Source of the DNA: Nesterenkonia sp. LB17
GTDB lineage: Bacteria; Actinomycetota; Actinomycetes; Actinomycetales; Micrococcaceae
Reading direction: 5' to 3'
Length of the DNA stretch: 64,000 nt
Assembly (NCBI RefSeq): GCF_022565915.1
Contig: NZ_JAJOYX010000002.1
Location: forward strand, 1 to 64,000
Part shown: positions 1 to 8,341 of the stretch, piece by piece
How positions within the stretch are numbered: position 1 is the first letter of the stretch
Layout of the letters: each line of letters opens with the position of its first letter
Position numbers and translations under genes: made by a program
Notes under the pieces: generated by a model
Database searches by the model: none
Told to the model about the DNA's origin: nothing
The model's input: only the letters and a program-made list of their open reading frames with translations

Positions 1-181
1 CGGTGCCGCTGTTGTTCAGCGGGTCCAGGTTGGCCTGGAAGGACCAGGACTCGCTGGAGGTCGAGGTGGCGGCGCCATCGGTTGCTCCGCCGTGCTCGGA
101 GTGGGCCATGGCTGGGCCTGCGCCCAGAAGCATTGCGCCGAGCGCGAGGGTGGGGACGGCGAACAGTTTGGATTTAAACAT
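1..181 (-). CDS. HIHFG/CHRD-like secreted protein, copy 1 (N-terminal part only, cut by window edge)
   Basis: This is the first 60 codons of a protein whose complete twin lies at 1503-2321. The DNA of positions 1-204 is identical to 2141-2344, covering the start codon and its GAGGAG ribosome binding site. The encoded part is a Sec signal peptide (MFKSK, then a hydrophobic stretch ending in AMA) and the beginning of the mature domain. The rest lies to the left of the window, so it is unknown whether the gene is intact. On the minus strand it follows sortase copy 1, which repeats the sortase then CHRD-like order of the neighbouring pair. Its upstream region (182-410) does not resemble that of copy 2. 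Confidence 0.8.
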   Translation of the reverse strand, partial: MFKSKLFAVPTLALGAMLLGAGPAMAHSEHGGATDGAATSTSSESWSFQANLDPLNNSGT

Positions 182-204
182 TTGAGGGACTCCTCGTCAC
201 AGTG
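1..204. repeat. Direct repeat A, copy 1 (identical to 2141-2344)
   Basis: All 204 bases visible here recur without a mismatch at 2141-2344. Identity stops abruptly about 23 bases upstream of the start codon. The left limit is outside the window. Confidence 0.95.
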
Positions 205-410
205 GGTGTGGCCGTGACCAGGGACTCCTGGCCGCGACTTCCTCAGAGTAACCCACGTCACTATCATTTCCAGAAATATTTCGTCATTCTAACTACCGCT
301 GGATCAATTGCGAGGAGCCGGTCGCGGTGATCTCTTTTCCGATATGGCAATCAAAAGCTCATACGCCCGGGGTATTCGAGTGCTGCTGTCCCTGAATGGC
401 CCTCTCGACC

Positions 411-1196
411 TCAGCCGACGAGGGTGGCGTAGACCACGTAGTTGTCCTCGTATTCTCCGGTGGCCTGGTCGTATCCGTCGCAGGTGATCAGTCGGAGTTC
501 GGGGTCTTCGGTGTTGCCGTAGACCTCGAGGGTGGGGAAGGTGTTCTTGCCGTATTGCTCGGCCTTGGTGACCACGAAGGTCGCGGTGTCGCCGTCTTCT
601 TGTCCCACGGTGATCTCGTCGCCTTCGACGAGTTCTGGCAGATCAGCGAAGACCCCTGGCTCACCGAGAGAGTCATCGACATGGCCCAGCAATACTGAAG
701 GGCCTTGCTCGCCTGGGGCGGGGGATCCGGTGTACCAGCTGGCTGGGGAACCTGGGTCACCGGGTGGGACCTCCAGGGTGCCGTTGTCCCTCAGGCCTAA
801 GTGCAGCAGCTCGGAGCTGGCATCGATGGCCGGGATCTCGAACGCGGCGGGGGGTGCGGTCTCGGTGGCGGCCTCGTTGCTCTGGTCTTCGGCGTCTTCA
901 GGTCCGTCGGCTTCGTCGGGTGTCGGTGTCGGGGAGGCTTCAACCTCACCCTCGTCGTCACGGTCTGCGTCGGTCTCTGTTGGTTCAGCTGGCTCATCCG
1001 CTTCCGGAGTGCCTGCCTCGGACTCGACCACCGCGGTGGCGGTGTCTTCCCCGGCACCCGGATCGTCGTCCTGCCCGGGTGAACATGCCGAGATCGCCAG
1101 TATCAGTGCGGTGGCGATGGTCAGTGCCGCACCACGGTGCCGGCCGCCGGAGGCCGCACAGGTGGTCTCGTGGTGGTGCCGAGGGAGAGGAGACAT
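411..1196 (-). CDS. Lipoprotein-anchored sortase (class E/F-like), copy 1
   Basis: Predicted cysteine transpeptidase of the sortase fold, 261 residues, acting on the outer face of the membrane. An N-terminal hydrophobic stretch ends in a lipobox (ISAC, Cys38), so it is probably a lipoprotein rather than a transmembrane protein. Residues about 41-115 are an acidic, Pro/Glu/Asp/Thr-rich linker, and the sortase domain spans about 117-261. The catalytic His172 is in VLLGHVD and Cys239 in LITCDG. The position after the cysteine that usually carries arginine reads DNYVVYA, so the active-site Arg is not obvious. I chose the ATG at 1196 because the paralogue at 2555-3340 has the same start context and exactly the same length; an in-frame extension to 1319 is possible. 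The nearest candidate substrate is the CHRD-like protein. The split between sortase class E and F is uncertain. Confidence 0.85.
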   Translation of the reverse strand: MSPLPRHHHETTCAASGGRHRGAALTIATALILAISACSPGQDDDPGAGEDTATAVVESEAGTPEADEPAEPTETDADRDDEGEVEASPTPTPDEADGPEDAEDQSNEAATETAPPAAFEIPAIDASSELLHLGLRDNGTLEVPPGDPGSPASWYTGSPAPGEQGPSVLLGHVDDSLGEPGVFADLPELVEGDEITVGQEDGDTATFVVTKAEQYGKNTFPTLEVYGNTEDPELRLITCDGYDQATGEYEDNYVVYATLVG

Positions 1197-1249
1197 CAAG
1201 GTTCTCTTTCGGGTTGGACCTGCTGGGCTGCGCTCTGGTCCGGGTGGCG
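414..1249. repeat. Direct repeat B, copy 1 (paralogous to 2558-3393)
   Basis: This segment aligns without gaps to 2558-3393 (offset 2144). It is almost identical over the sortase domain and linker (about 414-1115), diverges in the signal-peptide codons, then becomes nearly identical again around the start codon and 5' leader (about 1172-1249). Confidence 0.9.
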
Positions 1250-1382
1250 GGGACAAGGAGGAGGCCGAGGCGGCGGATCTTGTGGGCTGGTCAGTCACGC
1301 GATCTCGTGGCTTGCCCACGTCGACCTCTCCAGAAGTGACCGACGCCCGTGAGGAGCTTCTCGGGATTCTGTGACGGGCAGG

Positions 1383-1424
1383 GGTGGCCCCACTTCAAAC
1401 TCGGAAGTTCGAAGTGGGGCCACC
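1383..1424. terminator. Long palindrome between CHRD-like gene and sortase copy 1
   Basis: Arms GGTGGCCCCACTTC (1383-1396) and GAAGTGGGGCCACC (1411-1424) are perfectly complementary, and pairing continues inward with one mismatch to a small loop. No U-tract follows on either strand. It may be a factor-assisted terminator, a processing site or a protein-binding palindrome. It is the third hairpin met downstream of the CHRD-like gene. Confidence 0.5.
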
Positions 1425-1433
1425 GCTGGAGGC

Positions 1434-1453
1434 GCATCGCTGTGACGCGATGC
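1434..1453. terminator. Short hairpin in the CHRD-like to sortase spacer
   Basis: GCATCGC (1434-1440) pairs with GCGATGC (1447-1453) around a six-base loop. It sits between two larger palindromes, so the spacer downstream of the CHRD-like gene holds three consecutive hairpins. Confidence 0.35.
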
Positions 1454-1466
1454 ATGAGCCCTCAGG

Positions 1467-1501
1467 CTCGATTCGACCGGTCAGAGACCGGTCGAATCGA
1501 G
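1467..1501 (-). terminator. Terminator-like hairpin after the CHRD-like gene
   Basis: A perfect 16-bp stem (1467-1482 with 1486-1501, core GATTCGACCGGTC) closes on three bases. It lies right after the stop codon of the CHRD-like gene on the minus strand. It lacks a clear U-tract but is well placed to end that transcript. Confidence 0.55.
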
Positions 1502-1502
1502 A

Positions 1503-2321
1503 TCAGGACTCGACGGTGCGCTGGCGCATGAAGAAGGCACCGGCACCGATGGCGCCGAGGGCGAGTGCGCCGCCGCCGGCGGCCATGGCCACACTGGCGC
1601 CCTGTGAGCCGCCGGAGACGCCGGTGTCGGCGCCGCCTTCAGGCATCCCGTCCATCTGGGAGGCGGTCAGGGTGCCGCAGGCAGCGGGAAGAGTCGCAGC
1701 GTTGGGCAGGGACTCATCGAGCTCGCTCTGCTTGTTCGCGGCTTCCTCGGTCAGCACGGCTGGGTCCACGCCGTGGACCACGACGACGCCGGTGCCGTCG
1801 ACGATGGAGGCCAGCACGTCATCGGGGATCTCCAGGCTGCGCTCGTAGGTGTAGCTGCTGCCCCCGGGGAACCGCTCGACCGCGAGGCCGGAGTCCGGTG
1901 AGGTGTCGCCTTCGGTGGTCAGTGAGGTGCCGATGCCGCCGTAGAAGGGTGCGCCTTCTTCGACGTTGATGGCGCCGTCGCCGTCGACGTCAGCCTCGGG
2001 GCCGGGGCAGGTGCCCTGGGCGCCGAAGTGGATGTGCTGGGCGTGGGGGAAGGGTCCGTCCATGAAGGTCTCGGCTGCGCCGTCGACGGTCATGTAGACC
2101 GTGGCCTGGTTGCCCTGGCCCTCGATGAGCACGTCACCGACGGTGCCGCTGTTGTTCAGCGGGTCCAGGTTGGCCTGGAAGGACCAGGACTCGCTGGAGG
2201 TCGAGGTGGCGGCGCCATCGGTTGCTCCGCCGTGCTCGGAGTGGGCCATGGCTGGGCCTGCGCCCAGAAGCATTGCGCCGAGCGCGAGGGTGGGGACGGC
2301 GAACAGTTTGGATTTAAACAT
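1503..2321 (-). CDS. Secreted CHRD-like protein with EF-hand loop and putative sortase signal, copy 2
   Basis: A 272-residue exported protein. It has a Sec signal peptide (about 1-26, ending AMA), a mature domain resembling CHRD proteins with HAQHIHFG (residues 93-100) and VVVVHGVDP, and two cysteines (105, 215) that could form a disulfide. Residues 111-122 match the EF-hand loop D-x-D-x-D-G-x-I-x-x-x-E exactly, implying Ca2+ binding. The C-terminus looks like a cell-wall sorting signal: GADTG (230-234), a hydrophobic Ala/Gly-rich segment, then MRQRTVES. GADTG resembles the LAxTG pentapeptide of class E sortases with the first Leu replaced. Sortase genes lie on both sides. A GAGGAG ribosome binding site precedes the ATG. 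The CHRD assignment is by motif only; function unknown. Confidence 0.75.
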   Translation of the reverse strand: MFKSKLFAVPTLALGAMLLGAGPAMAHSEHGGATDGAATSTSSESWSFQANLDPLNNSGTVGDVLIEGQGNQATVYMTVDGAAETFMDGPFPHAQHIHFGAQGTCPGPEADVDGDGAINVEEGAPFYGGIGTSLTTEGDTSPDSGLAVERFPGGSSYTYERSLEIPDDVLASIVDGTGVVVVHGVDPAVLTEEAANKQSELDESLPNAATLPAACGTLTASQMDGMPEGGADTGVSGGSQGASVAMAAGGGALALGAIGAGAFFMRQRTVES

Positions 2322-2344
2322 TTGAGGGACTCCTCGTCACAGTG
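2141..2344. repeat. Direct repeat A, copy 2 (identical to 1-204)
   Basis: Identical to the first 204 bases of the window. It covers the 5' end of the CHRD-like gene and its ribosome binding site. The homology breaks at 2345, so the two copies have unrelated promoters. Confidence 0.95.
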
Positions 2345-2554
2345 ATTTGGTCGCACGGCCTCTGATCGTGGTGTCGACCAGGCCATGTACGCGGAGTTCG
2401 GAGCGACATCAGGATCGGATGGTGAAAATCCAAAAAAAGTTTCTCAGCTCACCGATCCGCCTCAACTAGCTAAACCTTTATCGATATCGAAAGACTCATT
2501 ATTCTCCGCGCGGGAAGTGCTGGGATCCGCTGTGTCGGACCGGCCATTCGGTCT

Positions 2555-3340
2555 CTAACTGGCGAGGGTGGCGTAGACCACGTAGTTGTCCTCGTATTCT
2601 CCGGTGGCCTGGTCGTATCCGTCGCAGGTGATCAGTCGCAGTTCGGGGTCTTCGGTGTTGCCGTAGACCTCGAGGGTGGGGAAGGTGTTCTTGCCGTATT
2701 GCTCGGCCTTGGTGACCACGAAGGTCGCGGTGCCGCCGTCTTCTTGTCCCACGGTGATCTCGTCGCCTTCGACGAGTTCTGGCAGGTCAGCGAAGACCCC
2801 TGGCTCGCCGAGAGAGTCATCGACATGGCCCAGCAATACTGAAGGGCCTTGGTCGCCTGGGGCGGGGGATCCGGTGTACCAGCTGGCTGGGGAACCTGGG
2901 TCGCCCGGTGGGACCTCCAGGGTGCCGTTGTCCCTCAGGCCTAAGTGCAGCAGCTCGGAGCTGGCATCGATGGCCGGGATCTCGAACGCGGCGGGGGGTG
3001 CGGTCTCGGTGGCGGCCTCGTTGCTCTGGTCTTCGGCGTCTTCAGGTCCGTCGGCTTCGTCGGGTGTCGGTGTCGGGGAGGCTTCAACCTCACCCTCGTC
3101 GTCACGGTCTGCGTCGGTCTCTGTTGGTTCAGCTGGCTCATCCGCTTCCGGAGTGCCTGCCTCGGACTCGACCACCGCGGTGGCGGTGTCTTCCGCGGCA
3201 CCCGGATCGTCGTCCTGCCCGGGTGAACATGCCGAGATCGCCAGCATCAGTGCGGTCGCCACCGCCAGTGCGGCGCCGCGGGGCCAGTGGTCTGCTGCCG
3301 ACAGGGCGGTGTGGTTGTCGTGCCGAGGGAGAGGAGACAT
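2555..3340 (-). CDS. Lipoprotein-anchored sortase (class E/F-like), copy 2
   Basis: Paralogue of the sortase at 411-1196, with the same 261-residue length and architecture: lipobox ISAC at Cys38, acidic linker, sortase domain with GHVD histidine and LITCDG cysteine. From the lipobox onward only a handful of residues differ (for example PGEQ to PGDQ, DGDT to DGGT, and the C-terminal VG to AS). The first 30 residues, before the lipobox, are clearly different. The shared ATG at 3340 and the shared leader support the start. The CHRD-like gene follows 233 bases downstream on the same strand, so each sortase is followed by a putative substrate. Near-identity suggests recent duplication or gene conversion. 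Confidence 0.85.
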   Translation of the reverse strand: MSPLPRHDNHTALSAADHWPRGAALAVATALMLAISACSPGQDDDPGAAEDTATAVVESEAGTPEADEPAEPTETDADRDDEGEVEASPTPTPDEADGPEDAEDQSNEAATETAPPAAFEIPAIDASSELLHLGLRDNGTLEVPPGDPGSPASWYTGSPAPGDQGPSVLLGHVDDSLGEPGVFADLPELVEGDEITVGQEDGGTATFVVTKAEQYGKNTFPTLEVYGNTEDPELRLITCDGYDQATGEYEDNYVVYATLAS

Positions 3341-3393
3341 CAAGGTTCTCTTTCGGGTTGGACCTGCTGGGCTGCGCTCCGGTGCGGGTGGCC
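2558..3393. repeat. Direct repeat B, copy 2 (paralogous to 414-1249)
   Basis: Gap-free match to 414-1249. The middle of the signal-peptide coding region is the only strongly diverged part. Confidence 0.9.
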
Positions 3394-3493
3394 GATCTCG
3401 TCTAGAGGCAGATATGCCCATAATCTACAGTCCCTCCCATCGGAGGTGCGGCGACAGGGGCGCAGCAATGCTCCGGCCCCTGCCGACGACACG

Positions 3494-4642
3494 TCAGGAG
3501 TCTCTGCGGACCACGACCACCGTGACATCATCGGGGGCCTTTGCCTGCTCGGCACGGCGCAGCGCCTCCTTGACAGCACCTTCGAGACCCTGCTCGCGCA
3601 GGACCTGCTCCACCTGCCCGTAGGGGTCCTCGAGGTCCAGAAGGTCCAGGAGTCCATCGCTGCAGGAGAGCAGGGCATCTCCGGGGTGCAGCTGCACGGT
3701 GTTCAGTCCGTGGGGCTCGCCCATGCCCATCGCCAGCGGCAGCCCGGTGGATTCCAGGTGCTCCCAGCTGCCGTCGGCGCGATGGATGAAGCTCAGGCTG
3801 TGTCCGCCGTCGACGTAGCTGATCTGGCCGGTGCGGGTGTCGATGTCGGCGCAGAACATGGTGACGAACATGTGCAGATCACCGATGTCCTGCTCCAGGA
3901 GAGAATCGATCTCAGCGACCGTGGCCTGCAGGGAACGCTCCGGAGCGGTGCGCATCGAGGCGCGGACGGCGGAGGCGATGATCCCTGCGCCGAGGCCCTT
4001 GCCCATGACGTCGGCCAGGGTGACCCGCAGCTGATCCCCCCGGAGAGCCACATCATGGAAGTCCCCAGAGACGCACCCGGCCGGGGCGGAGCCGGCGGTG
4101 ACGGTGAATCCCGCGGGCTGGGGGAGATTGCGGGGAGTCTGTGCGCGCTGGACCACGACGGCATGGTCCAGCTCCTGCTGCTGCGCCAGTTCGGTCTGGA
4201 CCCAGCGGGCGAGATCTTCGAGAAGGTCGCGTTCCTGCTCATCGAGCTCACGAGGCTTGGTGTCGATGAGGCACAGCGCTCCCACCTGTTCGCCGCCCGG
4301 GGCCTGCAACGGGTGACCGGCATAGAAGCGCAGGTGTGGGGCGCCTTCGACATAGGGACTCGCCGCGAACGCCTCATCCTGCTTCAGGTCTTCGATGACC
4401 AGGGTGCCGGTCTGCTGGATGGTTGATTCGCAGAATGCGTACTTGCGGGGAGTTTCTCGGCTGCCGAGCCCGACCGAGGACTTGCTCCACTGGCGATCAT
4501 TGTCGAGGAGATTCACGCTCACCATGGGTACGTCGAAGAGCTCTTGAGCCATCCGCGTGATCCGGTCCACACGCTCGTCGCGCGGCGTGTCGAGAATCTT
4601 CATGGCGTCGAGCGCGCTCTGTCGCTTCTTTTCGTCGATCAT
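3494..4642 (-). CDS. GAF-domain PP2C/SpoIIE-type serine phosphatase (RsbU-like)
   Basis: Predicted cytoplasmic sensor phosphatase of 382 residues. Residues about 20-155 form a GAF domain of the kind found in light- or redox-responsive regulators (VSVNLLDNDRQW, CESTIQQTG, YAGHPL, GALCLIDTKPR). Residues about 175-382 form the metal-dependent SpoIIE phosphatase domain with the acidic motifs SGDFHD, LADVMGKG, VDGGH, SDGLLD and PDDVTVVVV. RsbU-type enzymes dephosphorylate anti-anti-sigma factors in partner-switching cascades; no such partner is encoded nearby, so the target is unknown. The ATG at 4642 has an AGGGG ribosome binding site 7 bases upstream. A TTG five codons earlier is a less likely start. 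The gene stands alone, with 153 bases to sortase copy 2. Confidence 0.88.
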   Translation of the reverse strand: MIDEKKRQSALDAMKILDTPRDERVDRITRMAQELFDVPMVSVNLLDNDRQWSKSSVGLGSRETPRKYAFCESTIQQTGTLVIEDLKQDEAFAASPYVEGAPHLRFYAGHPLQAPGGEQVGALCLIDTKPRELDEQERDLLEDLARWVQTELAQQQELDHAVVVQRAQTPRNLPQPAGFTVTAGSAPAGCVSGDFHDVALRGDQLRVTLADVMGKGLGAGIIASAVRASMRTAPERSLQATVAEIDSLLEQDIGDLHMFVTMFCADIDTRTGQISYVDGGHSLSFIHRADGSWEHLESTGLPLAMGMGEPHGLNTVQLHPGDALLSCSDGLLDLLDLEDPYGQVEQVLREQGLEGAVKEALRRAEQAKAPDDVTVVVVRRDS

Positions 4643-4815
4643 TCCAGAACCCCTCAAGCTTTTCGTTCAGAAAGTACCTGATAGTGACTTTAGTCCATGT
4701 CAGGGGTGTTTTCTGAAATCGCCGGTGTCACAAATTGAATTGAGGGTTTTCCGCGCTGATCGAGTCGAATCTGCTGCGTATGACTTGAACCCGCTATGGG
4801 CGCATGATTTCCCGT

Positions 4816-5349
4816 TCAGCTCCGGTTGGGCAGGATCATGTTCGTCATCCGGGCGGTCGAGAGGCGGCGGCCGGCGTCGTCGGTCATCACGATCTCGTGG
4901 CTGGTCAGCTGCCGGCCCAGGTTGATCGGGGTACAGGTGGCCGTGACCATGCCCTCGGTGACCGAGCGATGGTGGGTGGCGCCGAGCTCGGTGCCCACCA
5001 CGGCATTGTCCACACCCAGGTTGACCCGCGCGTGCAGGATCGCGGCGATCGAGCCGAGCGTCTCGGCGAGCACCATATGCGCGCCACCGTGGAAGAGGCC
5101 CATGTTCTGCTCGTTGCCCGCCACCGGGAGGGTGGCCACCATCTTGTCCGGGTGCATCTCCACGTAGCGCAGCCCCATCTTCACGCCCAGCGGAGTGACC
5201 CCATGCGGGCCGGTCCACTGCTGATACTCCTCAGGGATCCCGGCGGCCTCCATCCGGGCGGCGCGCTCCTGCTCGTCGGGGAAAGGGGTGGGCGCACCGG
5301 GGACGGCGCTGCTGGAAAGGTGGTCGAGGGCGTCAGGCTGAGAAGTCAT
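4816..5349 (-). CDS. Hotdog-fold thioesterase (PaaI/YbgC-like)
   Basis: A 177-residue protein with a single hotdog domain over about 55-175. The motif GLFHGGAHMVLAET matches the helix-entry segment (HGG) of PaaI/4HBT acyl-CoA thioesterases, and HHRSVTEGMVTATCTPINLGR matches the strand that follows. It presumably hydrolyses an acyl- or aryl-CoA; the substrate cannot be told. It is divergent from polA, with 115 bases between the starts, a pairing that I recall from other Micrococcaceae. The ATG at 5349 is preferred because the longer reading frame runs back through the intergenic DNA into polA. Confidence 0.82.
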   Translation of the reverse strand: MTSQPDALDHLSSSAVPGAPTPFPDEQERAARMEAAGIPEEYQQWTGPHGVTPLGVKMGLRYVEMHPDKMVATLPVAGNEQNMGLFHGGAHMVLAETLGSIAAILHARVNLGVDNAVVGTELGATHHRSVTEGMVTATCTPINLGRQLTSHEIVMTDDAGRRLSTARMTNMILPNRS

Positions 5350-5464
5350 GGGCTCCAGTTTAGATGCCGGCGGGGAGCGACGGACATCCGCCCCACGAAC
5401 CGGAGCGGCGTGGGGCCCGTGAGAGGTCTGGGGTGAGCGCGGGGGTCGCGATAGGCTGGGGCTC

Positions 5465-8341
5465 GTGTCAACTAGTCCCAATAAACTCCTGGTCATCGAC
5501 GGTCACTCCATGGCGTTCAGGGCCTTCTACGCCCTGCCCACCGAGAGCTTCCTGACGGATTCCGGCCAATACACCAATGCGGTGCACGGCTTCACGAACA
5601 TGCTGCTCAAGCTGATCCGTGAGGAGCTGCCCACCCACGTGATCCTCGCCTTCGACCTGGACACGCCCACCTTCCGGCACACCTCCTACGCCGAATACAA
5701 GGGAGGCCGCGCGAAGACCCCCGAGGAGTTCCGCGGCCAGATCGACCTGATCAAGCAGGTCGCCGAGGGGATGAACATCGCCACGGTGACCCTGGAGGGC
5801 TACGAGGCCGATGACATCGTCGCCACCTACGCCACGAAGGCCGACACCGCCGGCTGGGAGACCCTCATCGTCTCCGGCGACCGCGACACCCTGCAGCTCG
5901 TCACTGAACGCACCACCCTGATGTACCCCACCTCGGGACTCTCCAAGGTCGCGATGCTCGACCCCGCCGGGGTGGAGGAGAAGTACCTGGTCCCGCCGCT
6001 GAAGTACCCGGACCTCGCCGCACTGGTGGGGGAGTCCGCGGACAACCTGCCCGGCGTGCCGAAGGTCGGGCCCAAGACGGCGGCGAAGTGGATCACCGAA
6101 TACGGCTCCACCCGCGGGATCATCGAGAACGCCCACCTGATCGGCGGCAAGGCCGGGGAGAACCTGCGGGAGGCACTCGCCGATGTGGAGCGCAACCTGG
6201 AGCTGAACCTGCTGCTCCGCGACCTCGAGCTGCCCGTGGCGCTGGAGGACTCAGAGCTGAAGGTCCCTGACCGCGAGGTGCTGGAGCCGCTCTTCGACGC
6301 GCTGCAGTTCAACCAGATCCGTGAACGGCTCTTCGAGACCTTCGCCGCCCGTTTCCCGGAGACCGTGGTCGCGCCCACCCCCACCGACGCGCTCCCCGCG
6401 GTCACAGTGACCGAACAGGCCGAGGAGATCTCCGCGTTCCTCAAGGCCCACGCCGGAGCCCCGATGGCGATCGCGGTCTGCCTGGACCGCGCCGGTGAAT
6501 CGCTGACCACCAAGCCCAAGCGCGACGAAGCCGCCCGTGTGGCTGAGGCACTCGCCGTCGTGCTGGTGCCCTCGGCTTCCGGGGACGTGGCTGGAGCTGC
6601 TGATGCTGCCAAGACTGCAGAGACCGACGACGACGCCGGGGAGCCTGCCGCCGAGCCGACCGGCATCCCCGCGCTGGCGCTCTCGCTGACCTCGCTCGAC
6701 GCGGCCGCCGACGCAGTCTTCGCCGAGTGGCTGCAGGACCCGGAAGCGCCGAAGCTGGTCCACGACATCAAGGACGCCGGCAAGCGGCTGGCCTGGCGCG
6801 GACTGCGCCTGCGCGGCGCCGTGGAGGACACCCTGATCTCCGGCTACCTGATCCAGCCGGACCGGCGGAACTTCGCCTTCACCGAGCTGGTCACCCAGTA
6901 CCTGGGAGCCTCCACCGACCCGGCCTCCTACCTCGGCGGCCACAGCGAGGACGACGCCGAGGCGTCCGGACCGCAGGGCCCGGACCTGTTCTCCTCTCAG
7001 GACCTGCTGCCCGGGGTGACGGCGGAGGACCTGGACACCGCCGCGCTGCACGGGATGCTGCTGCACCAGCTCTCCCAGGCGCTGGGGGAGCAGCTGGTCG
7101 AGCGCAACGGCGAGAAGCTGCTGCGCGAGATGGAGATCCCGCTGGCCGAGATCCTGCTGCAGATGGAGCTCACCGGCATCGCGGTGAGCCCGGAGAAGCT
7201 GGACGCCCTGGACGCCGAGTTCGCCGCCGCCATCGAGGCCTCCGCGCAGGAGGCCTACGCCGTGGTCGGGCACGAGGTGAAGCTCGGCTCGCCCAAGCAG
7301 CTGCAGACCGTGCTGTTCGAGGAGCTCGAGCTGCCCACCGCCGGGGTGAAGAAGAACAAGACCGGCTACTCCACCGATGTGGAGACGCTGCAGGCGCTGC
7401 TGATCAAGACCCAGAACGACTTCCTGGTGCACCTGATGAACCACCGGGACTCCACCAAGCTGCGCCAGACCGTCACCGGGCTGATGGAGGCCGTCACCGG
7501 GGATGGGCGGATCCACACCACCTATGCGCAGACCGTGGCCGCCACCGGACGGCTCTCTTCGCTGCACCCGAATCTGCAGAACATCCCGGTCCGCACCGCC
7601 GCCGGTCGGAAGATCCGCGACGCCTTCGTGGTCGGCTCCGGCTACGAGACCCTGCTGACCGCCGACTACTCGCAGATCGAGATGCGCATCATGGCGCACC
7701 TCTCCGGGGACCAGGCACTGATCGAGGCGTTCCGCGCCGGGGAGGACCTGCACAACTTCGTCGGCGCCAAAGTCTTCGGGGTCGAGGCTTCGGAGATCAC
7801 CCCGGAGCAGCGCTCCAAGGTCAAGGCGATGAGCTACGGGCTGGCCTACGGGCTTTCGAGCTTCGGGCTGTCCAAGCAGCTGGGCATCGGGGTCGATGAG
7901 GCCCGGAACCTGATGAACGAATACTTCGAACGCTTCGGCGGGGTCCGCGACTACCTGCGCGAAGTGGTCACCCAGGCGAAGCAGGACGGGTTCACCTCCA
8001 CCCTCTTCGGGCGGCGCCGCTACCTTCCGGACCTGAGCAGCGAGAACCGGCAGCTGCGCCAGATGGCCGAACGGGCCGCGCTGAATGCCCCGATCCAGGG
8101 CTCCGCGGCGGACATCATCAAGCAGGCGATGATCGGCGTGGACTCCGCGCTGCGCTCCGAGGGCCTCGAGTCCCGGCTGCTGCTGCAGGTCCACGATGAG
8201 CTCATCTTCGAGGTGGCCTCGGGGGAGCGCGAGGCCCTGGAGAAGCTGGTCACCACCCACATGGGTGCCGCCACCGAGCTCGACGTCCCACTGGATGTGC
8301 ACGTGGGCGTGGGCTCCTCCTGGCACGAGGCCGCACACTAG
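5465..8341 (+). CDS. polA: DNA polymerase I
   Basis: Repair and Okazaki-fragment polymerase of 958 residues, GTG start. The N-terminal third is the 5'-3' flap exonuclease (LLVIDGHSMAFRAFYAL, EGYEADDIVAT, VSGDRDTLQLV, GVPKVGPKTAAKWI). The middle is a 3'-5' exonuclease fold without the acidic DxE motif, so proofreading is probably absent, as in other actinobacterial Pol I. It carries an Ala/Asp/Glu-rich insertion near residues 375-405. The polymerase domain has motif A (DYSQIEMRI, Asp734), the O-helix (RSKVKAMSYGLAYG) and motif C (VHDELIFE, Asp911). It is monocistronic: the next gene converges on it. Confidence 0.98.
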   Translation: MSTSPNKLLVIDGHSMAFRAFYALPTESFLTDSGQYTNAVHGFTNMLLKLIREELPTHVILAFDLDTPTFRHTSYAEYKGGRAKTPEEFRGQIDLIKQVAEGMNIATVTLEGYEADDIVATYATKADTAGWETLIVSGDRDTLQLVTERTTLMYPTSGLSKVAMLDPAGVEEKYLVPPLKYPDLAALVGESADNLPGVPKVGPKTAAKWITEYGSTRGIIENAHLIGGKAGENLREALADVERNLELNLLLRDLELPVALEDSELKVPDREVLEPLFDALQFNQIRERLFETFAARFPETVVAPTPTDALPAVTVTEQAEEISAFLKAHAGAPMAIAVCLDRAGESLTTKPKRDEAARVAEALAVVLVPSASGDVAGAADAAKTAETDDDAGEPAAEPTGIPALALSLTSLDAAADAVFAEWLQDPEAPKLVHDIKDAGKRLAWRGLRLRGAVEDTLISGYLIQPDRRNFAFTELVTQYLGASTDPASYLGGHSEDDAEASGPQGPDLFSSQDLLPGVTAEDLDTAALHGMLLHQLSQALGEQLVERNGEKLLREMEIPLAEILLQMELTGIAVSPEKLDALDAEFAAAIEASAQEAYAVVGHEVKLGSPKQLQTVLFEELELPTAGVKKNKTGYSTDVETLQALLIKTQNDFLVHLMNHRDSTKLRQTVTGLMEAVTGDGRIHTTYAQTVAATGRLSSLHPNLQNIPVRTAAGRKIRDAFVVGSGYETLLTADYSQIEMRIMAHLSGDQALIEAFRAGEDLHNFVGAKVFGVEASEITPEQRSKVKAMSYGLAYGLSSFGLSKQLGIGVDEARNLMNEYFERFGGVRDYLREVVTQAKQDGFTSTLFGRRRYLPDLSSENRQLRQMAERAALNAPIQGSAADIIKQAMIGVDSALRSEGLESRLLLQVHDELIFEVASGEREALEKLVTTHMGAATELDVPLDVHVGVGSSWHEAAH

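Follow-up and report, generated by a model that had tools for sequence, protein, structure and literature searches.

The left end of contig C3 in the genome of Nesterenkonia sp. LB17 (2.82 Mb in 10 contigs) raises the question of why two almost identical sortase genes alternate there with two genes for a CHRD-like protein, and how the copies have come to be so similar. The window considered here comprises bases 1-64000 of this contig, 64,000 nucleotides (nt) in all. Open reading frame coordinates confirmed the arrangement that an original prediction, made from the letters alone, had read on the minus strand: in 5' to 3' order, the sortase gene S2, the CHRD-like gene C_A, the sortase gene S1 and the CHRD-like gene C_1 (Table 1). 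We consider it probable that sortase (S) and CHRD-like protein (C) form a dedicated unit for anchoring a protein to the cell wall, that the polA locus in which this array lies ancestrally held the order C-S-C, that its copies were homogenized by gene conversion, and that a further copy of the substrate gene, on contig C6, has lost its sortase.

The copies proved as similar as had been claimed. S1 and S2 both encode 261 amino acids; 14 of the residues that differ precede the lipobox Cys38 and only 5 follow it, and 39 of 786 nt differ. Window positions 1-204 are identical to 2141-2344, so that C_1 and C_A match over 204 nt and not beyond; as window base 1 is also the first base of contig C3, C_1 is truncated by the contig edge. 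A third CHRD copy, complete and located at C6:66595-67410, encodes a protein identical to that of C_A at 271 of 272 residues.

Linkage of CHRD-like proteins and class F sortases

Two lines of evidence support the predicted dedicated sortase-substrate module: linkage conserved across the family and the order, and the presence of a curated sorting domain in the substrate. In a family sample of 149 genomes, C was found in 53 and a class F-like sortase (E<=1e-12) in 80. The linkage count, which used 135 of 145 sortase rows, placed a same-strand class F-like sortase within 1 kb of 62 of the 83 C matches and in 51 of the 53 CHRD-bearing genomes. An order sample of 198 genomes, 48 of them with C, was scored with the 75 strongest sortase rows, and here 46 of 68 C matches were linked within 1 kb, in 10 of 11 families. 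Finally, of 303 relatives that emerged from a scan of named genomes, 80 were kept; a sortase lay near C (within ~1.1 kb, judged by eye) at 69 of these 80 loci, and 2 of the remaining 11 loci terminate just after or inside C.

The sortase gene was downstream of C in 58 of the 62 linked family pairs and upstream in 4, all of which are within this genus. The usual order outside this genus therefore appears to be substrate first and sortase second. Sortase-then-substrate was considered as a general order and rejected, being confined to this genus in the family, order and named-locus samples; it does recur, as the prediction would have it, in other Nesterenkonia. A class F-like sortase was no more than 1.6 kb away from 54 of the 91 GVDTG-type tails in the family sample. 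In two genomes, G089 (L052) and N. sandarakina (G042, L053), class F-like sortases adjoin another GVDTG-tailed protein, which suggests that CHRD proteins are not the sole substrate type. A marked expansion was seen in two genomes of one other genus (G035 and G004, genus g5), with 6-10 CHRD matches, 6-8 class F-like sortase matches and 6-11 GVDTG tails apiece.

The substrate and the sortase

The C_A protein consists of a signal peptide (recognized by eye), a globular domain and a GVDTG-type tail; at its C-terminus, a PxGGADTG motif (found in 24 relatives in the alignment) is followed by a hydrophobic stretch, judged by eye, and a basic tail. Among 53 relatives aligned out of 80 fetched, 48 match the NCBIfam model GVDTG_CTERM (NF058571) at E<=0.01, whereas the window protein is borderline, with 27.9 bits as a protein and 32.2 bits in the genome search against a cut-off of 29. 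The CHRD model PF07452 matches 33 of the 53 relatives at E<=0.1 (best 2.6e-5) but not C_A itself at E<=1, and the EF-hand-like loop, which lies in an acidic insert, scores 13.6 bits, below the Pfam cut-off of 25.9. EF-hand loops were the sole matches of C in a single-protein PDB search.

A predicted model of C has a mean predicted local distance difference test (pLDDT) score of 75.4, with blocks of residues 41-220 averaging 81-97. Entries for Cu,Zn superoxide dismutase (SOD) are among the 50 PDB matches listed (best E 2.7e-4, TM-score by target mostly 0.5-0.6), and C is thus predicted to fold like Cu,Zn-SOD. Residues H93, H96, H98, H183, C105, C215, D111, D115 and E122 are invariant across the 53 rows; the HxH, VVH and Cys pair presumably recall the copper ligands and disulphide of SOD. 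The predicted fold agrees with the SOD-like fold reported for the CHRD domains of chordin (PMC13382577). Compared with a CHRD domain as such, the window protein has in addition the wall-sorting tail and the acidic insert. Assignment of C to Cu,Zn-SOD by sequence was rejected, as Sod_Cu (PF00080) is absent from the Pfam matches of the window protein and its relatives; a profile comparison of C with the relatives' SODs was weak (probability 13%).

S1 and S2 both match PF04203 and score 168.3 and 166.1 bits, respectively, with the NCBIfam class F sortase model (NF033748), barely above its curated cut-off of 166. The predicted model of the S1 domain (mean pLDDT 84.9) has sortases among the 50 PDB matches listed, while a single-protein PDB search with S1 found nothing. 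In both proteins Cys38 belongs to a lipobox and an acidic linker is present, and both look like lipoproteins; a lipobox-like motif, under a loose pattern, was found in 60 of 70 CHRD-linked sortases.

From the linkage, the sorting-signal architecture, both predicted folds, the lipobox and the active-site His and Cys, we infer the following scheme of lipidation, cleavage and wall attachment. C would be exported via its N-terminal signal peptide, and fold outside the cell as a CHRD/SOD-type beta-barrel, with the hydrophobic stretch and basic tail keeping it in the membrane. The class F sortase S, anchored as a lipoprotein via its long acidic linker, would then cleave C within the PxGGADTG signal, probably at the T-G bond, and attach it to the wall.

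A similar setting is described for Actinoplanes missouriensis, where AMIS_11010 and AMIS_36440 adjoin srtF1 and srtF4 as C adjoins S; these proteins have a signal peptide, a transmembrane region and a basic tail but no pentapeptide motif, and were suggested as possible substrates (PMC13251363). Unlike the window, the class F loci of that organism are not described as a tandem array in the accessible portion of the paper. A search of open-licence PubMed Central (PMC) found no paper combining "sortase" and "CHRD domain", and the 7 papers with "GVDTG" were, judged by title, not on sortases. The original prediction, which knew of no described system of this composition, has to be corrected insofar as NCBIfam already provides models for class F sortases and for the GVDTG sorting domain. 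The S-C unit appears to pair a class F sortase of unusual active site with its substrate, and conversion appears to have kept its copies similar.

Homogenization of the copies at two loci

Comparison with other Nesterenkonia placed the array in a conserved context. At polA, N. sandarakina has the order thioesterase-C-S-glycosyltransferase and G089 (2 contigs) the order thioesterase-C-S-C-TIR-glycosyltransferase. In Nesterenkonia sp. E16_10, the contig with polA and the thioesterase gene ends inside C, and a second contig starts in the 3' end of C and continues with S-C-TIR-glycosyltransferase; these two contig ends overlap exactly by 77 nt. G089 and E16_10 have C-S-C between polA and the glycosyltransferase gene. 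The C6 copy (L007:11593-12872 = C6:66592-67871) adjoins cytochrome-b5-domain and rhodopsin genes, and an S-C pair of E16_10 (L069) is likewise found next to genes for a membrane protein and a protein with a cytochrome-b5 domain. The sortase of this second, cytb5 locus is intact in E16_10, whereas the window genome keeps only a leader relic of ~70-110 nt. Synteny with E16_10 at both loci indicates that the polA and cytb5 loci predate the split of the two lineages.

Despite this age, synonymous divergence (dS) between C_A and the C6 copy is 0.05, compared with 0.30 and 0.48 between syntenic orthologues at the cytb5 and polA loci, respectively. The approximately unbiased (AU) test rejected a clade of the window and E16_10 copies labelled polA5 (p 1.2e-5), a clade of the window and E16_10 cytb5 copies (p 0.0024), a clade of the four polA5 copies (p 2e-71) and a clade of the G089 and E16_10 copies labelled polA3 (p 1e-10). 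In sequence terms, synteny, dS and AU tests show that the copies were homogenized after the species split. Gene conversion fits this homogenization best, although a single copy may have been transferred recently from the second locus. The polA locus of the lineage would have held C-S-C, the window genome would have a further sortase, and at the C6 locus the sortase would have been lost and the substrate left.

An alternative, which we regard as unlikely, is that the near-identity stems from recent tandem or dispersed duplication without conversion between old copies, for example by the spread of an S-C unit from the cytb5 locus to polA. It would account for the similarity of C_A and the C6 copy over 964 nt, including 143 nt upstream (97.7%), for the clustering of the window copies with the E16_10 cytb5 copy (85/98, in a tree with several deeper forks unresolved), and for the C-terminal ends of the sortases, which are LAS in S2 as in the E16_10 cytb5-locus sortase and LVG in S1 as in the G089 polA sortase. 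Alignment of S1 and S2 for conversion tracts, however, revealed a mosaic, with 26 differences in the first 96 nt, 8 in the next 682 and 5 in the last 8. Fisher tests (p 7e-19 and 5e-8) indicate that this pattern is not due to chance, and plain duplication is disfavoured because it does not produce such mosaics, among which is also the identity of C_1 and C_A over their first 204 nt only. Moreover, the two polA copies of G089 are near-identical (dS 0.02), yet the same C-S-C in E16_10 has diverged copies (dS 0.39-0.51 among the three copies of that genome). S1/S2 and C_1/C_A thus call for conversion, which is also likely in the copies of G089. Of the two origins first proposed, recent duplicate or gene conversion, the former may still apply to C_A. 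Comparison of the S1 and S2 leaders with E16_10 sortases over 111 ungapped nt (76 and 71 for E16_10 polA, 79 and 74 for E16_10 cytb5) did not decide their ancestry.

Several observations weigh against a dedicated module homogenized by conversion. C was unlinked within 1 kb in 21 of 83 family and 22 of 68 order matches, including 12 of 13 in one family (f7), and 37 of 91 GVDTG tails have no class F sortase within 1.6 kb. The protein-level GVDTG score of C_A falls short of the cut-off. For C_A and the C6 copy, a recent move from the cytb5 locus instead of conversion is possible, and the region upstream of C_A matches that of the cytb5-locus copies as well as that of the 5' polA copies in relatives, so that C_A could be the old 5' copy with S2 extra, or part of an S-C unit from the cytb5 locus. 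Lastly, the usual beta8 catalytic Arg position is occupied by Asn in almost all sortase domains of the group.

The active-site arginine

In a comparison of the group profile with S. aureus SrtA, Asn aligned with Arg197 and Arg with the Thr of TLxTC. The loci at hand yielded 123 sortase matches, 122 of which cover the active site. His and Cys are retained in 122 of 122 domains and Asn is found at the beta8 position in 119; of the features that define the sortase superfamily, the fold and the His and Cys are thus present and the beta8 Arg of the His-Cys-Arg triad is absent. The states at positions C-4 and beta8 were R/N in 112 domains, V/N in 4, A/N in 3 and T/R in 3, and never R/R or T/N; 7 domains have Arg at neither place. 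Because these rows share ancestry and over-represent CHRD-linked loci, these states do not represent independent events. A third, divergent sortase of the window genome (L054:9778-10149; C1:624262-624651; 87.3 bits, below the class F cut-off) has Val at C-4.

These patterns allow the tentative suggestion, for which we would put the chances at somewhat under even, that the active-site Arg has moved in most class F sortases of Actinomycetota (beta8 Arg to Asn, beta7 TLxTC Thr to Arg), together with a switch of signal from LPxTG to P-x-G-x-x-D-T-G, carried by a SOD-fold wall protein encoded adjacently. In its new position, the Arg would serve to hold the backbone of the substrate or the signal Asp. 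Against this suggestion, the T/R cases come from three genera of a single family (f28), all of them scoring under the class F cut-off, and the relatedness of the rows and the 7 domains without Arg at either place count in the same direction. The structure 5UUS, cited as a class F sortase (PMC9520033, PMC8361268), is shown with the usual triad, unlike the S group, and matched the S-group profile only at E 0.17. No prior report of a missing beta8 Arg was seen among the open-licence PMC papers listed by literature searches.

The absence of this Arg could also mean that the sortases are inactive or otherwise employed and that the neighbouring protein stays in the membrane by its tail, which we think rather improbable. 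In S. pyogenes SrtA this essential Arg binds the carbonyls of P4 and P3, and R216A abolishes activity (PMC9520033); deletion of all four class F genes in A. missouriensis gave no phenotype in the traits studied (PMC13251363). The retention of His and Cys in all 122 domains, the prevalence of Arg at C-4 and the conserved linkage to GVDTG proteins nevertheless argue against this reading.

The contig edge and neighbouring features

That the tandem copy is an assembly artefact is very improbable: although C_1 stops at contig base 1 and no contig end examined overlaps it, S1 and S2 differ in sequence, S1-C_1 aligns through the intergenic region with the S-C of E16_10 and S2-C_A with the S-C of another genome (G066), E16_10 likewise has contig ends, overlapping by 77 nt, within the same gene, and the expected neighbour gene lies close to a contig end. 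This neighbour, the glycosyltransferase orthologue of the window genome (L067; C1:843384-844679), is 1.1 kb from the right end of C1, which is therefore likely the neighbour of the left end of C3. Taken with the C-S-C of relatives, this suggests that copy 1 is probably real. The edge artefact that the original prediction had named as a possible refutation does not hold, and the repeat offers the simplest explanation for the break in the contig; no overlap with the left end of C3 was found among 16 end stretches, which leaves the gap to C1 unsized. The glycosyltransferase orthologue has one TGA inside its frame. Contigs C2 and C10 have mutual 300-nt overlaps on both strands.

Table 1. Coordinates of the array and its flanking features in the window
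Feature	Position	Strand	Description
C_1	2-181	minus	first 60 codons of CHRD-like substrate gene; open at window base 1, cut by contig edge
S1	411-1196 (open frame to 1319)	minus	class F sortase, 261 aa counted from the start common to S2
Inverted repeats (2)	1379-1428, 1467-1501	minus	between C_A and S1; possible terminators by eye
C_A	1503-2321	minus	complete CHRD-like substrate, 272 aa; GVDTG-type sorting domain at residues 226-268
C_A upstream region	2345-2464	minus	common to C6 copy and C copies of other Nesterenkonia
S2	2555-3340 (open frame to 3421)	minus	class F sortase, 261 aa counted from the start common to S1
Thioesterase (4HBT) gene	4816-5496	minus	flank marker
polA (DNA polymerase I)	5465-8341	plus	flank marker; locus anchor in relatives

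The two inverted repeats between C_A and S1 were not picked up by a terminator scan, which found 4 terminator-like sites in 1-3700, not clearly above the mean of 1.8 in shuffled sequences. No sigma-70-like promoters were found in 1-3700 and no Rfam match in 1-6000. A GAF-SpoIIE phosphatase gene (3494-4657) sits between S2 and the thioesterase gene and has no homologue in the 14 loci of other genomes compared. A ThsB_TIR (Thoeris-type) gene or homologue is found near CHRD copies at L037:9808-10401, L070:2422-2859 and L038:5286-5705, in G089 (chromosome and a 103-kb contig) and E16_10.

Implications

The physiological role of class F sortases has been described as unknown (PMC13251363). The near-complete linkage in the CHRD-bearing genomes of one family points to the first protein to test as a class F substrate. 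If S works without the beta8 Arg, this would contradict the published claim that every native sortase identified relies on His120, Cys184 and Arg197 (PMC8361268) and would offer an alternative recognition motif for peptide ligation. Taking into consideration the probable conversion between its copies, the locus may also offer a naturally occurring example of concerted evolution among genes for bacterial surface proteins.

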